Translations under genes and position numbers: made by a program
NCBI RefSeq assembly: GCF_004001325.1
Contig: NZ_AP018722.1
Coordinates: 558,001-622,000 of the forward strand
Length of the DNA: 64,000 bases
From: Thiomicrorhabdus aquaedulcis
Lineage (GTDB): Bacteria; Pseudomonadota; Gammaproteobacteria; Thiomicrospirales; Thiomicrospiraceae
Reading direction: 5' to 3'
Shown here: positions 1,433 through 58,336 of the stretch, in pieces
How the letters are laid out: each line of letters begins with the position of its first letter
Numbering within the stretch: position 1 is the first letter of the stretch
The notes under the pieces: model-generated
What the model was told of the DNA's origin: nothing
Databases searched by the model: none
Seen by the model: only the letters and a program-made list of their open reading frames with translations

Positions 1433-1458
1433 AGCATTGACCAGGCCTGGTCAATGCT
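1433..1458. repeat. ACCAGGCCTGGT palindrome, extended to 26 bp
   Basis: The 12-bp core at 1440-1451 is embedded in a perfect 26-bp palindrome (AGCATTG...CAATGCT) between sufS and murC. It could form a hairpin, but no T-run follows, so it is not a classical terminator. This is the longest perfect version of the window-wide repeat. Confidence 0.9.
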
Positions 1459-1628
1459 AAAGTCGTTGTAAACCATCATCAATCAGCACTAAAACAGCAA
1501 GCGTTTATTCAAGTTATCATGCCGTTATGGCATTTTCTTCTGTGTCTTTATCGAATATTTTAGCGCCGGTTTATGCAAAGCGTTGTATCATATCGCCCAT
1601 TCAAAATAATAGAAATAAAGCGTTTTTA

Positions 1629-3023
1629 ATGAAAGAACAGGTCAAGCAGATTCATTTTGTAGGAATTGGCGGGGTCGGCATGGCCGGCATTGCCGAAGTG
1701 TGTTTAAACCTTGGGTATGTGGTGAGTGGTTCGGACTTAAAACACAACCCAACCGTGGCGCGATTAGAGTCCTTGGGGGCGTTGATTCAGCTGGGGCACG
1801 ATGCACTGCATGTGCTTAATACCGATGTGGTAGTGGTGTCTACCGCCATTGGCGCGGGCAATCCCGAGGTAAATTGGGCGCGTGAAGCACGCGTGCCGGT
1901 GATTCCGCGTGCCGAAATGCTGGCCGAGTTAATGCGCATGCGTTTTGGCATTGCCATTGCGGGCACGCACGGCAAAACCACCACCACCAGTTTAACGGCG
2001 GCGGTTTTAACTCAAGGCGGGGTCGATCCTACGTTTGTGATTGGTGGCAAGCTTAATCAAGTGGGCGCCAATGCGCGGTTGGGTTCGGGTCGCTATTTAG
2101 TGGCCGAAGCCGATGAATCCGACGCCTCTTTTTTACACCTGTCGCCTATGATGTCGGTAGTCACCAATATTGACGAAGACCACATGGAAACCTACCATGG
2201 TGACTATTTAAATCTTGAAAACACCTTTATTGAGTTTATTCATCGTCTGCCTTTTTACGGCTTGGCGATTGTCTGTGTGGACGACCCTAATATTCAAGCC
2301 ATTTTGCCTAAATTGTCGCGACGGGTCGAAACCTATGGGTTTTCAGAGCAAGCCGACGTGCGCGCCATTAATGTGCAGGCGCACGGTTTGCAAATGCGTT
2401 TTCAGGTGTTGGTGGGGCGTGAAAAAAGTTTTGATGTGGTGTTAAACACGCCAGGTCGCCACAATGTGCTGAACGCGTTAGCGGCCATTTCGATTGGCTT
2501 AAAACTCGACATTGCCGTGGCCGACATTGTGCAGGCTTTGCATGAGTTTGGCGGGGTAGGGCGGCGGTTTGAAGTGTATGCGCAGCGTTTTATTGGGGGT
2601 CATACGGTCACGTTAGTGGACGATTACGGTCACCATCCAACCGAGCTCACCGCCACCATCGCCACGGCCAAAGAGGCGTTTGTCAAAAAACGAGTGGTGT
2701 TGGTGTTTCAGCCGCATCGCTACACGCGCACCCGTGATTTATTTGACGAGTTTGTTAACGCACTGTTGGCACCCGATTTGGTGATTTTAATGGACGTGTA
2801 TTCAGCGGGCGAAACCAGTTTGCCAATGTTTGATTCCAAAGCCCTCTTGCAAGCCATGCGGGTGCGGGGCAAGCAAGCTATTTACGCCGAAAGCGTTGAG
2901 CAATTAAATGAAATTGCCAGCGATGTGTTGCAAGACGACGACGTGCTGTTGGTTATGGGCGCGGGCGACATTGGCTTAGTGTCAAAGCAGTGGATGGCGC
3001 TGGACGCCGCCCACAAACTCTAA
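1629..3023 (+). CDS. murC: UDP-N-acetylmuramate--L-alanine ligase MurC
   Basis: Cytoplasmic ATP-dependent ligase adding L-alanine to UDP-MurNAc, the first peptide step of peptidoglycan synthesis. 464 residues, normal for the family. It begins MKEQVKQIHFVGIGGVGM (nucleotide-binding Rossmann start), has the ATP loop GTHGKTTTTS, and in the C-terminal domain the DDYGHHPTE motif. The frame is open upstream to 1527, but MurC proteins start just before the FVGIGG motif, so ATG 1629 is chosen. murG is not upstream and murB is not downstream, unlike a standard dcw cluster. Confidence 0.95.
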   Translation: MKEQVKQIHFVGIGGVGMAGIAEVCLNLGYVVSGSDLKHNPTVARLESLGALIQLGHDALHVLNTDVVVVSTAIGAGNPEVNWAREARVPVIPRAEMLAELMRMRFGIAIAGTHGKTTTTSLTAAVLTQGGVDPTFVIGGKLNQVGANARLGSGRYLVAEADESDASFLHLSPMMSVVTNIDEDHMETYHGDYLNLENTFIEFIHRLPFYGLAIVCVDDPNIQAILPKLSRRVETYGFSEQADVRAINVQAHGLQMRFQVLVGREKSFDVVLNTPGRHNVLNALAAISIGLKLDIAVADIVQALHEFGGVGRRFEVYAQRFIGGHTVTLVDDYGHHPTELTATIATAKEAFVKKRVVLVFQPHRYTRTRDLFDEFVNALLAPDLVILMDVYSAGETSLPMFDSKALLQAMRVRGKQAIYAESVEQLNEIASDVLQDDDVLLVMGAGDIGLVSKQWMALDAAHKL

Positions 3024-3056
3024 GAGACTTTCGCGCCTCACTCGTGCAAAGGTCTC
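3024..3056. mobile_element. Short inverted-repeat element (solo MITE ends)
   Basis: 33 bp with ends GAGACTTTCGCG and TGCAAAGGTCTC, touching the murC stop codon. The arms match the terminal repeats of the 159-bp elements at 21078 and 34995, with the interior lost. It lies where murB would stand in many gammaproteobacterial clusters. Confidence 0.6.
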
Positions 3057-3091
3057 TAAACATAAGTCGGGTATTACAGGACAGTTTGAAA

Positions 3092-4000
3092 ATGAATTTT
3101 GGAAAAGTAGCCGTATTAATGGGTGGCACCGCCGCCGAACGTGATGTGTCATTACGCAGTGGAGTGGCCGTTACGGCCGCATTAATCGCCGCAGGTATTG
3201 ATGCTACCGCTGTGGATGTCACCTCGCTAAACGACTTGCAAGCGGTGGCACAGCATTACGATCGCGCCTTTATTGCCCTGCATGGCCGTTGGGGTGAAGA
3301 CGGTGTGGTGCAAGCCATTTTGACCGATTTAGGCGTGCCGTTTACCGGCAGTGGCATGGCGGCATCGGCCTTGGCGATGGACAAATTACGCACCAAGTGG
3401 ATTTGGTTGGGTGCGGGGTTGCCTACACCAGAATTTGTCTGGGTCTCGGCCACGCGACCGCTTAATCTTGCGACCTTTGCCATCCCGTTTCCGGTGATTG
3501 TTAAGCCGTGCCATGAAGGTTCGAGTATCGGCATGCGCAAAGTCAATAATGTGACCGATTTGGCCGAAGCGGTCGCGTTTGCCCAGCAGTTTGACAGCGA
3601 AGTATTGATTGAACGCTGGATTACTGGCAAAGAGTACACCGCCGGTGTCTTGGGTAAAGAGGCTTTACCGCTAATTCGTTTACAAACCACCCACGATTTT
3701 TACGATTTTGACGCCAAATATAAATCCAACGACACTCAATACATTTGCCCATGTGGGTTAGAGCCTGCCATTGAAGCCAATATTAAGGCGATGGTGTTGC
3801 AAGCGTTTGATGTGTTGGGTGCTAAAGGTTGGGGGCGGGTCGATTTGATGATAGATGAAAACAACCAGGCCTGGTTAATTGAACTAAATTCGGTGCCCGG
3901 CATGACCGATCACAGTTTGGTGCCCATGGCCGCTAAAGCCTCGGGTCGAACCTTTGAAACCTTGGTGCGTGAAATTTTACATTCATCGTGTTTGCAATAA
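3092..4000 (+). CDS. ddlB: D-alanine--D-alanine ligase
   Basis: ATP-grasp enzyme joining two D-alanines for the peptidoglycan stem peptide. 302 residues, typical for DdlB. It starts MNFGKVAVLMGG with the conserved AERDVSLRSG motif, has KPCHEGSSIG in the central ATP-grasp region, and ELNSVPGMTDHSL near the C-terminus. The frame continues upstream to 2990 but that part overlaps murC and the inverted-repeat element, so ATG 3092 is used. The palindrome ACCAGGCCTGGT occurs inside the gene (3864-3875), read as part of NNQAWLIEL, a conserved stretch that tolerates it. ftsQ follows 34 bp on. Confidence 0.95.
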   Translation: MNFGKVAVLMGGTAAERDVSLRSGVAVTAALIAAGIDATAVDVTSLNDLQAVAQHYDRAFIALHGRWGEDGVVQAILTDLGVPFTGSGMAASALAMDKLRTKWIWLGAGLPTPEFVWVSATRPLNLATFAIPFPVIVKPCHEGSSIGMRKVNNVTDLAEAVAFAQQFDSEVLIERWITGKEYTAGVLGKEALPLIRLQTTHDFYDFDAKYKSNDTQYICPCGLEPAIEANIKAMVLQAFDVLGAKGWGRVDLMIDENNQAWLIELNSVPGMTDHSLVPMAAKASGRTFETLVREILHSSCLQ

Positions 4001-4034
4001 TGTACCCTGATACTCTGAAGAGTGGGTTGTTGTT

Positions 4035-57077: not shown

Positions 57078-57178
57078 TCCCTAGCACATTACTGACAAAA
57101 GTATTATTAACACATAATTATTAACCATTAAGAGTGGCCAACGGCAAGTAGCCACTTTGTCTATTTAAGGAAAAAACA

Positions 57179-58195
57179 ATGCACGTTTATTACGATAAAG
57201 ATTGCGATCTATCCATTATTCGCGGTAAAAAAGTCGCCATCATTGGTTTTGGTTCGCAAGGTCATGCCCACGCATGCAACCTGCAAGATTCAGGCGTTGA
57301 TGTTACAGTCGGCCTGCGCGCAGGTTCTTCTTCAATCAAAAAAGCACAGGGTTACGGCCTAAAAACTGCTGACGTACCGACCGCAGTAGCGGGTGCTGAC
57401 GTGGTCATGATTTTAACGCCAGACGAGTTTCAATCGGTACTGTACAAAGAAGAGATTGAGCCTAACATCAAGCAAGGCGCGGTATTAGCGTTTGCACACG
57501 GTTTTGCCATCATTTACAACCAAGTTCAGCCACGTAAAGATTTAGACGTCATTATGATTGCGCCTAAAGCACCGGGTCACACCGTACGTTCTGAATTTGT
57601 ACGTGGCGGCGGGGTTCCTGACCTAATTGCTATTGAGCAAGATGCGTCTGGAAACGCAAAAGCCATCGCACTGGCGTACGCGTCTGGAGTGGGCGGTGGA
57701 CGTACCGGTATTATCGAAACAACGTTCCGTGAAGAGTGCGAAACTGATCTGTTTGGTGAACAAGCGGTATTGTGCGGTGGTGCGGTTGAACTGGTTAAAG
57801 CTGGTTTTGACACCTTGGTTGAAGCAGGCTACGAGCCAGAAATGGCGTACTTTGAATGCTTGCACGAACTTAAGTTGATTGTTGACTTAATGTTTGAAGG
57901 CGGCATTGCCAACATGAACTACTCTATTTCTAACAATGCAGAGTACGGCGAATACGTAACAGGTCCAAAAGTGATTAACGCCGAATCACGTGAAGCGATG
58001 CGTCAAGCCCTTAAAAACATTCAAACGGGTGAATACGCCAAGCAATTTATTCTTGAAGGCCAGTCAAACTACCCGTCAATGACCGCCGCACGTCGTCTAA
58101 ACGCCGAGCACGGAATTGAAGTAGTGGGCAAAAAACTTCGTGGCATGATGCCATGGATTGCGGCCAACAAGATTGTTGACCAAGAAAAGAACTAA
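57179..58195 (+). CDS. ilvC: Ketol-acid reductoisomerase (class I)
   Basis: NADPH-dependent isomerisation and reduction of acetolactate. 338 residues, short class I form. NADPH fold [13 protein letters not shown]; metal ligands in [12 protein letters not shown] and the knotted C-terminal domain. AAGGAAAA precedes the start. Ends the ilvBHC operon at a strong terminator. Confidence 0.97.
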
Positions 58196-58240
58196 GAACT
58201 TTATACAAGGGTAGTGTATACCCGCGTTTAAGCGCTTACT

Positions 58241-58266
58241 TAAAACCCACGCAAGTGGGTTTTTTT
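58241..58266 (+). terminator. Terminator of ilvBHC
   Basis: Stem AAAACCCAC / GTGGGTTTT with a seven-base T run, 46 bp after the ilvC stop. Confidence 0.88.
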
Positions 58267-58292
58267 ATGCCTTGCGATTTATAAAATGTTTA

Positions 58293-58336
58293 ACCAGGCC
58301 TGGTCAGTTTGGTTTTTGTGTTTGACCAGGCCTGGT
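58293..58336. repeat. Two ACCAGGCCTGGT palindromes
   Basis: Exact copies at 58293-58304 and 58325-58336, start-to-start 32 bp, the same spacing as the pair at 34903/34935. They lie in the ilvC/DUF3817 convergent spacer. Confidence 0.9.

Follow-up and report, generated by a model that had tools for sequence, protein, structure and literature searches.

A patchy, family-restricted palindrome of the Thiomicrospiraceae as a possible self-DNA tag

What keeps one short palindrome in many exact copies along a bacterial chromosome? The question is raised by a 64,000-nt stretch of Thiomicrorhabdus aquaedulcis, a relative of known sulfur oxidisers. The stretch, which we call the window, spans positions 558001–622000 of contig 1 (NZ_AP018722.1) of a 2.54-Mb genome and carries 20 exact copies of the perfect 12-mer palindrome ACCAGGCCTGGT. 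On the basis of its numbers, its distribution among relatives and its anatomy, we tentatively propose that the palindrome serves as a tag of self DNA and owes its spread to biased uptake, similar in behaviour to the DNA uptake sequences (DUS) and uptake signal sequences (USS) of other bacteria yet palindromic.

The palindrome is iterated across the genome

A preliminary description of the window had listed the 20 exact copies and put the chance expectation far below one. Every copy was found at its coordinate (Table 1), and 100 dinucleotide shuffles gave an expectation of 0.00. Matches with at most one mismatch numbered 26, against 0.08 expected. When the count was extended to the whole genome and to relatives, as the preliminary description had suggested, ACCAGGCCTGGT was found 718 times in the T. 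aquaedulcis genome and the reversed word, which served as a control, 0 times. The shuffles and the reversed control rule out a chance origin, and the genome-wide count rules out a feature limited to this stretch.

The distribution of the palindrome is patchy and family-restricted. In a set of 62 family genomes (designated below by G numbers), 27 are copy-rich, which we define as at least 80 exact 12-mers: 10 of the 32 from the window's genus (its own genome included), 9 of 9 from genus g5, 7 of 11 from g6 and the 1 of 1 from g3. The remainder of the window's genus consists of 4 genomes with 16–38 copies and 18 of the 32 with at most 6, and genera g2, g4 and g28 have 0–3 copies. Each of the 365 genomes outside the family in a class-level sample of 369 has at most 5. 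On viral contigs the form TRACCAGGCCTGGTYA was detected in 18 stretches, once in each (entries close to this genome may be missing there), and a phage feature was rejected on this evidence.

Related species use strict, loose and switched forms

In G023, a member of the window's genus, ACCAGGCCTGGT is present in 0 copies and ACCGGCCGGT in 1025, a form that reaches at most 15 copies in each of the other 61 family genomes. G005, G018 and G025 have in common a looser form around the core CAGGCCTG, and G035 and G075 mainly have A[CG]CAGGCCTG[CG]T. The density of the core, approximately 28–55 per 100 kb, is alike across the sampled genomes, whether copy-rich or loose (the top value comes from just 20 kb of G070). 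Because their core density is similar and one position holds C or G, we regard G035 and G075 as using a looser dialect rather than a decayed word. We had considered that loss of the pilus leads to word decay; this idea was dropped, as these two genomes, which lack PilT, have fewer exact 12-mers at a similar core density. No comparable palindrome was found in 60–100 kb each of G003, G014 and G024. Related species thus show strict, loose, switched and absent states, and gene-content comparison could therefore reveal the reader of the word. Separately, the sampled stretches L238–L242 of G081 contain, between genes, 10-mers of high GC content such as CCCATGCGGG, with 22 occurrences, which may come from an array of clustered regularly interspaced short palindromic repeats (CRISPR) or a tandem repeat.

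The conserved unit is a complete palindrome

Consensus and context were derived from 119 copies in 464 kb of the T. aquaedulcis genome. The preliminary description had proposed that intergenic copies widen beyond the 12-mer, and this was upheld in part: the single strong addition is two bases outside, where T occupies 78% of the sampled copies and G is almost never found, and the adjoining purine (73%) and a T three bases away (52%) proved weaker. The mismatch spectrum was sharp, for besides the 119 exact copies the sample contained 51 with one mismatch and 30 with two (18 expected). The one-mismatch copies mostly deviate at the two outer bases, and in a separate tally of one-base deviations the outermost base accounted for 29 of 53 and the next for 14 of 53.

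After all sites with at most two mismatches had been masked, half-sites outside them showed no clear excess, and most were at or below expectation in T. aquaedulcis (ACCAGG, 95 observed and 155 expected). Small excesses were seen for TTGACCAGG (6 versus 2.9 expected) and TGACCAGG (9 versus 7.3) and, in G023, for TACCGG (79 versus 65) and TTACCGG (37 versus 26). We conclude that the palindrome as a whole, of approximately 16 bp or more, forms the unit, and its reader probably needs both halves.

The clustering of deviations at the outermost bases, and the occurrence of alternate forms of a highly iterated palindrome (HIP), are both features of HIPs such as HIP1 in passages of PMC4390886. This raises the alternative that an orphan DNA methyltransferase makes or keeps the sequence by modifying it, as has been proposed for HIP1, and the four genomes without intergenic preference (see below) are compatible with it. 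Methylation of AGGCCT was nevertheless the least supported of the functions that the preliminary description had offered. Outside motif copies, AGGCCT occurs 130 times versus 110 expected in T. aquaedulcis and near expectation in other genomes, and the conserved site of at least 16 bp is longer than expected of a typical methyltransferase recognition sequence. The C5 methyltransferase family PF00145 exceeds its cut-off in just 8 of the 27 copy-rich genomes, in 0 of 9 from g5 and not in G023; the N4/N6 families PF01555 and PF02086 were not searched. C5 methylation as a requirement was rejected because PF00145 remains under its cut-off in the other 19 copy-rich genomes, and we consider a HIP-type origin improbable.

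The flanks bring in the main rival explanation, in which a sequence-specific nucleoid-associated protein would bind the palindrome as a homodimer, touch A/T tracts 8–12 bp from the dyad and bend or organise the chromosome. Such tracts are present in four of five data sets (T. aquaedulcis, G023, G062 and the loose group), the exception being G078, in which the flank is C-rich. Both they and a palindrome whose half-sites are not clearly enriched argue for such a protein, as does a period of approximately 10 bp in A/T content around the intergenic copies of T. aquaedulcis, which 0 of 300 controls reached. The phasing, however, is weak at the coding copies of that genome (8 of 300), marginal in G023 (8 of 200), G078 (7 of 200) and G062 (5 of 200), and matched by 28 of 200 controls in the loose group; long-range phasing as a general trait was dropped, as it is strong in T. 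aquaedulcis alone. Moreover, a nucleoid protein poorly explains why 18 of 32 same-genus genomes have at most 6 copies (G023, with its own form, among them) or why the word is scarce on a plasmid (see below), and the occurrence of ParB paralogues does not follow that of the word. We rank the uptake signal ahead of the nucleoid-protein site, which we consider unlikely.

Copies favour intergenic gaps in several genomes and are scarce on a plasmid

By our own rough gene calls, 14 of the 20 window copies lie between genes, the number given in the preliminary description, and 6 within genes. In the 464-kb sample, 71 of 119 copies are intergenic, with intergenic DNA amounting to 15% of the sequence, 44 are inside genes and 4 across gene ends. 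Of the intergenic gaps, convergent ones are the most densely occupied (24 copies in 9.7 kb), tandem ones come next (39 in 46.4 kb) and divergent ones last (8 in 12.2 kb). The intergenic-to-coding ratio, computed with the core word (or ACCGGCCGGT in G023), was 3.7–7.1 in five of nine data sets, namely T. aquaedulcis, G078, G062, G023 and the loose group. Counts in 19 stretches of the T. aquaedulcis chromosome are unclumped (mean 5.1, variance 2.9, lower-tail p 0.07); no origin–terminus trend was visible by eye. The first 100 copies are spaced almost at random, with 7 gaps below 200 bp and 6.2 expected, and some copies are paired at 23–49 bp, forming candidate stem-loops.

The unclumped spread without such a trend is consistent with a nucleoid protein. 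The lack of clumping would also suit an enzyme of repair or recombination, for which the word could act, for example, as a Chi-like stop without polarity, or a strong site for DNA gyrase, the central GGCC then being the 4-bp stagger of the gyrase consensus. The density peak at convergent genes, where positive supercoils accumulate, and the scarcity on the plasmid also favour such an enzyme site. Known Chi sites, however, are polar and this word is palindromic, and the word is nearly missing from many sister species although gyrase is present in almost all bacteria; we give this explanation a slim chance. Slimmer still is the chance of an ordinary mobile repeat, a terminator part or a regulator site. 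The pairs could be read in this way, but the flanks show little preference beyond approximately 12 bp outside the 12-mer, spacing is near random, 48 of the 119 sampled copies lie wholly or partly in genes, and the gaps between divergent genes, in which promoters are located, have the lowest density. An interspersed mobile repeat was rejected, as the copies have no common flanks apart from those in a 149-bp tandem repeat.

Contig 2 (96.8 kb) carries genes resembling RepM, TraN and MobH, of which the MobH-like gene exceeds its cut-off and the other two do not, and was taken as a conjugative plasmid because of them. For its length 25.7 copies would be expected and 5 are present (Poisson P 8e-7), a fivefold scarcity on this one plasmid. 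In the sampled stretches of the T. aquaedulcis genome the longest core-free gap, 17.1 kb, is located in a low-GC region that includes genes for flagellin and sugar modification, and the emptiest sampled chromosome stretch (40% GC) contains sugar-epimerase, cytidylyltransferase, flagellin and FliD genes among 10 genes searched.

Coding copies point to a DNA word

Gln-Ala-Trp is spelled CAG GCC TGG in 41 of 44 occurrences in sampled T. aquaedulcis genes. Among 20 genomes that represent three genera, 13 have one comEC site in common, as the 12-mer or the core CAGGCCTG, and the word-less G003, G019, G024 and G026 have different residues there. G023 has two comEC sites, both at positions other than the shared one; sites have therefore been gained and lost rather than fixed by local function. 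The DNA word rather than the peptide appears to be the thing conserved. In one 20-kb region comEC is among the densest genes, and in T. aquaedulcis it has four cores (p 0.0075, with hundreds of genes compared). We do not claim special enrichment in comEC because it was picked post hoc and per-gene counts are near Poisson overall. One of 10 genes surveyed among 41 motif-bearing genes is dprA.

Competence, pilus and ParB genes as candidate readers

ComEC is encoded in 56 of 62 family genomes, including 26 of the 27 copy-rich ones. The ComEC of G023 (L076) forms the longest branch in a ComEC tree (1.79 versus a median of 0.47), a mere lead given the weak support around it. PilT exceeds its cut-off in 19 of the 27 copy-rich genomes, and PilQ (TIGR02515) in 0 of the 62, its matches being read as GspD-like (by size and neighbours), Tad-like and MshL-like. 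G075 encodes an MshL-like secretin, a PilB/GspE-like ATPase and a GspF-like protein, all under family cut-offs. The pilin-like genes of five pilus loci yielded no clear candidate reader. As a separate observation, a pilus cluster of G075 (L227, 2817–19920) and its surrounding genes are rich in cores, with up to 5 per gene (three p values, 0.004–0.1). ParB_N gave a single strong match in 60 of 62 genomes, whether or not they carry the word, and two in G007 and G072, other extra matches being weak; a ParB or Noc paralogue as the reader was rejected, as no extra paralogue tracks the word.

A possible role in DNA uptake

We suggest that the palindrome may be a genome-wide self tag of the Thiomicrospiraceae. 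It would be read on double-stranded DNA by a protein needing both halves of a palindrome of at least 16 bp, probably a homodimer, and it would act at DNA uptake through ComEC; biased uptake and recombination of tagged DNA would spread it. In favour of this proposal we count the genome-wide excess, the patchy and family-restricted distribution, the dialects with the full swap in G023, the palindromic unit with its sharp mismatch spectrum, the choice of permissive positions in most sampled genomes, the entry into proteins, the gain and loss of comEC sites, the low number on the plasmid, the long core-free gap and the presence of ComEC in nearly all copy-rich genomes. The dimeric reader, its identity and uptake through ComEC as the acting step are inferred.

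Several results weigh against this proposal. First, the word is a perfect palindrome without clearly enriched half-sites, and DUS are not known to be palindromic. Second, ComEC is also present in 30 of 35 copy-poor genomes and its presence does not, therefore, predict the word; furthermore, the comEC site common to many genomes is missing from G015 and G033, both copy-rich. Third, the known or pilus-linked components are wanting: ComP_DUS (PF16732) exceeds its cut-off in 0 of 62 genomes, by which a receptor of that type over the cut-off was rejected (PpdA/ComN were not searched for); GspH/FimT (PF12019) matches come from 3 of 62 genomes, none of them copy-rich, and the single match inspected belongs to type II secretion; and five copy-rich genomes without PilT above its cut-off are at least 99% complete, two of which (G035 and G075) keep a normal core density. 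Fourth, intergenic preference is not a fixed property, since the ratio is 0.5–1.3 in G035, G075, G077 and G081. Fifth, the plasmid is slightly AT-richer than the rest (GC 0.43 versus 0.46). Sixth, T. aquaedulcis genes with a match among the sampled relatives (134 of 381) carry 0.131 copies per kb and those without 0.105, no clear difference, and the expectation that conserved genes carry more copies was dropped. Last, we found no published uptake experiment.

Genome-wide self words are known from few lineages, and the origin, spread and dialect change of such words form a long-standing question. If the palindrome is an uptake sequence, it would add a second reading geometry, a dimer on a palindrome, and the switch from ACCAGGCCTGGT to ACCGGCCGGT within one genus would allow receptor and word to be matched by comparison. 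That it is, to our knowledge, the first palindromic DNA uptake sequence, family-wide, with a homodimeric receptor unrelated to ComP/ComN and with this dialect switch inside a genus, is a more specific claim that we regard as doubtful. Were it a nucleoid-protein site, it would rank among the most numerous known sharp sites of any bacterial DNA-binding protein.

Features of the window

The copies in the window are collected in Table 1. Three of them are not independent, as all three are contained in a single 149-bp tandem repeat (21326–21640, 2.1 copies). A search of the window against Rfam returned 0 matches. A second repeat resembles a miniature inverted-repeat transposable element: inverted ends GAGACCTTTGCACGA and TCGTGCAAAGGTCTC enclose approximately 160 bp at 21078–21236 and 34995–35153, and further ends are located near 3046, 7895–7935 and 41042. 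The window has 8 end sequences; 23 were counted in 380 kb of the same genome and at most 3 in 100–300 kb of each of five other genomes. A gene at 46050–49916, with der, bamB and hisS as neighbours, encodes a 1288-aa protein with GlcD-like and iron–sulfur reductase-like matches, all under NCBIfam cut-offs.

Table 1 Exact and one-mismatch copies of the palindrome in the window, with their context according to rough gene calls
Feature	Coordinates	Context
Exact copy	1440..1451	Between tandem genes
Exact copy	3864..3875	Within gene 3092-4000
Exact copy	7279..7290	Between convergent genes
Exact copy	12141..12152	Between convergent genes
Exact copy	13397..13408	Between divergent genes
Exact copy	18625..18636	Between divergent genes
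Exact copy	19443..19454	Within N-acetylglutaminylglutamine amidotransferase gene
Exact copy	21331..21342	No. 1 of 3 in 149-bp tandem repeat
Exact copy	21480..21491	No. 2 of 3 in 149-bp tandem repeat
Exact copy	21629..21640	No. 3 of 3 in 149-bp tandem repeat
Exact copy	30767..30778	Within gene 30495-31025
Exact copy	34903..34914	Between convergent genes; pair member 1, spacing 32 bp
Exact copy	34935..34946	Pair member 2 (with 34903); pair is a candidate stem-loop
Exact copy	37767..37778	6 bp past a gene end
Exact copy	42123..42134	Within hisS
Exact copy	49993..50004	Between convergent genes
Exact copy	52175..52186	Within gene 51247-52347
Exact copy	53444..53455	Within gene 52701-53972
Exact copy	58293..58304	Between convergent genes; pair member 1, spacing 32 bp
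Exact copy	58325..58336	Pair member 2 (with 58293)
One-mismatch copy	10113..10124	Within secA
One-mismatch copy	14754..14765	
One-mismatch copy	21046..21057	
One-mismatch copy	33839..33850	
One-mismatch copy	40935..40946	
One-mismatch copy	58796..58807	

Comparison with known systems

The 12-mer was found in no publication searched, most subscription journals lying outside that search, and no paper linking 'uptake sequence' to Thiomicrospira was found. Papers with shorter fragments of the words had unrelated titles among the matches listed, and the topic literature gave no report of the palindrome among the matches listed.

The consensus sites of Noc, ParB and KorB are palindromes of similar length with A/T outer bases. 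They number from a few to tens, whereas there are 718 sites here, and no extra ParB paralogue accompanies the word. SlmA and MatP sites are likewise palindromic and dispersed along the chromosome; they number in the tens and are biased toward or away from the terminus, whereas no terminus-related trend was apparent by eye in the 19 stretches.

The preliminary description had likened the palindrome to HIP1 in behaviour only, and in that sense the comparison holds, as both are highly iterated and palindromic and have alternate forms. According to passages of PMC4390886, alternate HIPs with other sequences exist, much as the palindrome here is swapped for another in some relatives. HIP1 itself, in the same passages, is the 8-mer GCGATCGC and is associated with GATC/CGATCG methyltransferases, whereas ACCAGGCCTGGT belongs to a unit of at least 16 bp, its distribution follows that of no C5 methyltransferase, and intergenic gaps are favoured in five of nine data sets.

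The closest likeness in behaviour is to DUS and USS, for which passages of PMC3630211 describe many copies, dialects, permissive locations and pairs at terminators. Here, too, one short word is in strong genome-wide excess over its reversed control, dialects differ among related species (the switch in G023 and the loose forms), and copies occupy permissive intergenic positions and occur in pairs. Conjugative elements have been identified from DUS distributions, as the title of PMC7371117 states, and the word is scarce on the one conjugative plasmid. The two differ in that the USS word is non-palindromic with AT-rich regions downstream of its core, according to passages of PMC12616744, whereas A/T tracts flank the palindrome here; in addition, no ComP_DUS exceeded its cut-off and PilT is missing from some copy-rich genomes. 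Because of its palindromic form, and because no known receptor was found, we do not file the palindrome as a member of the DUS or USS but place it beside them, as a possible self tag that resembles them in behaviour.

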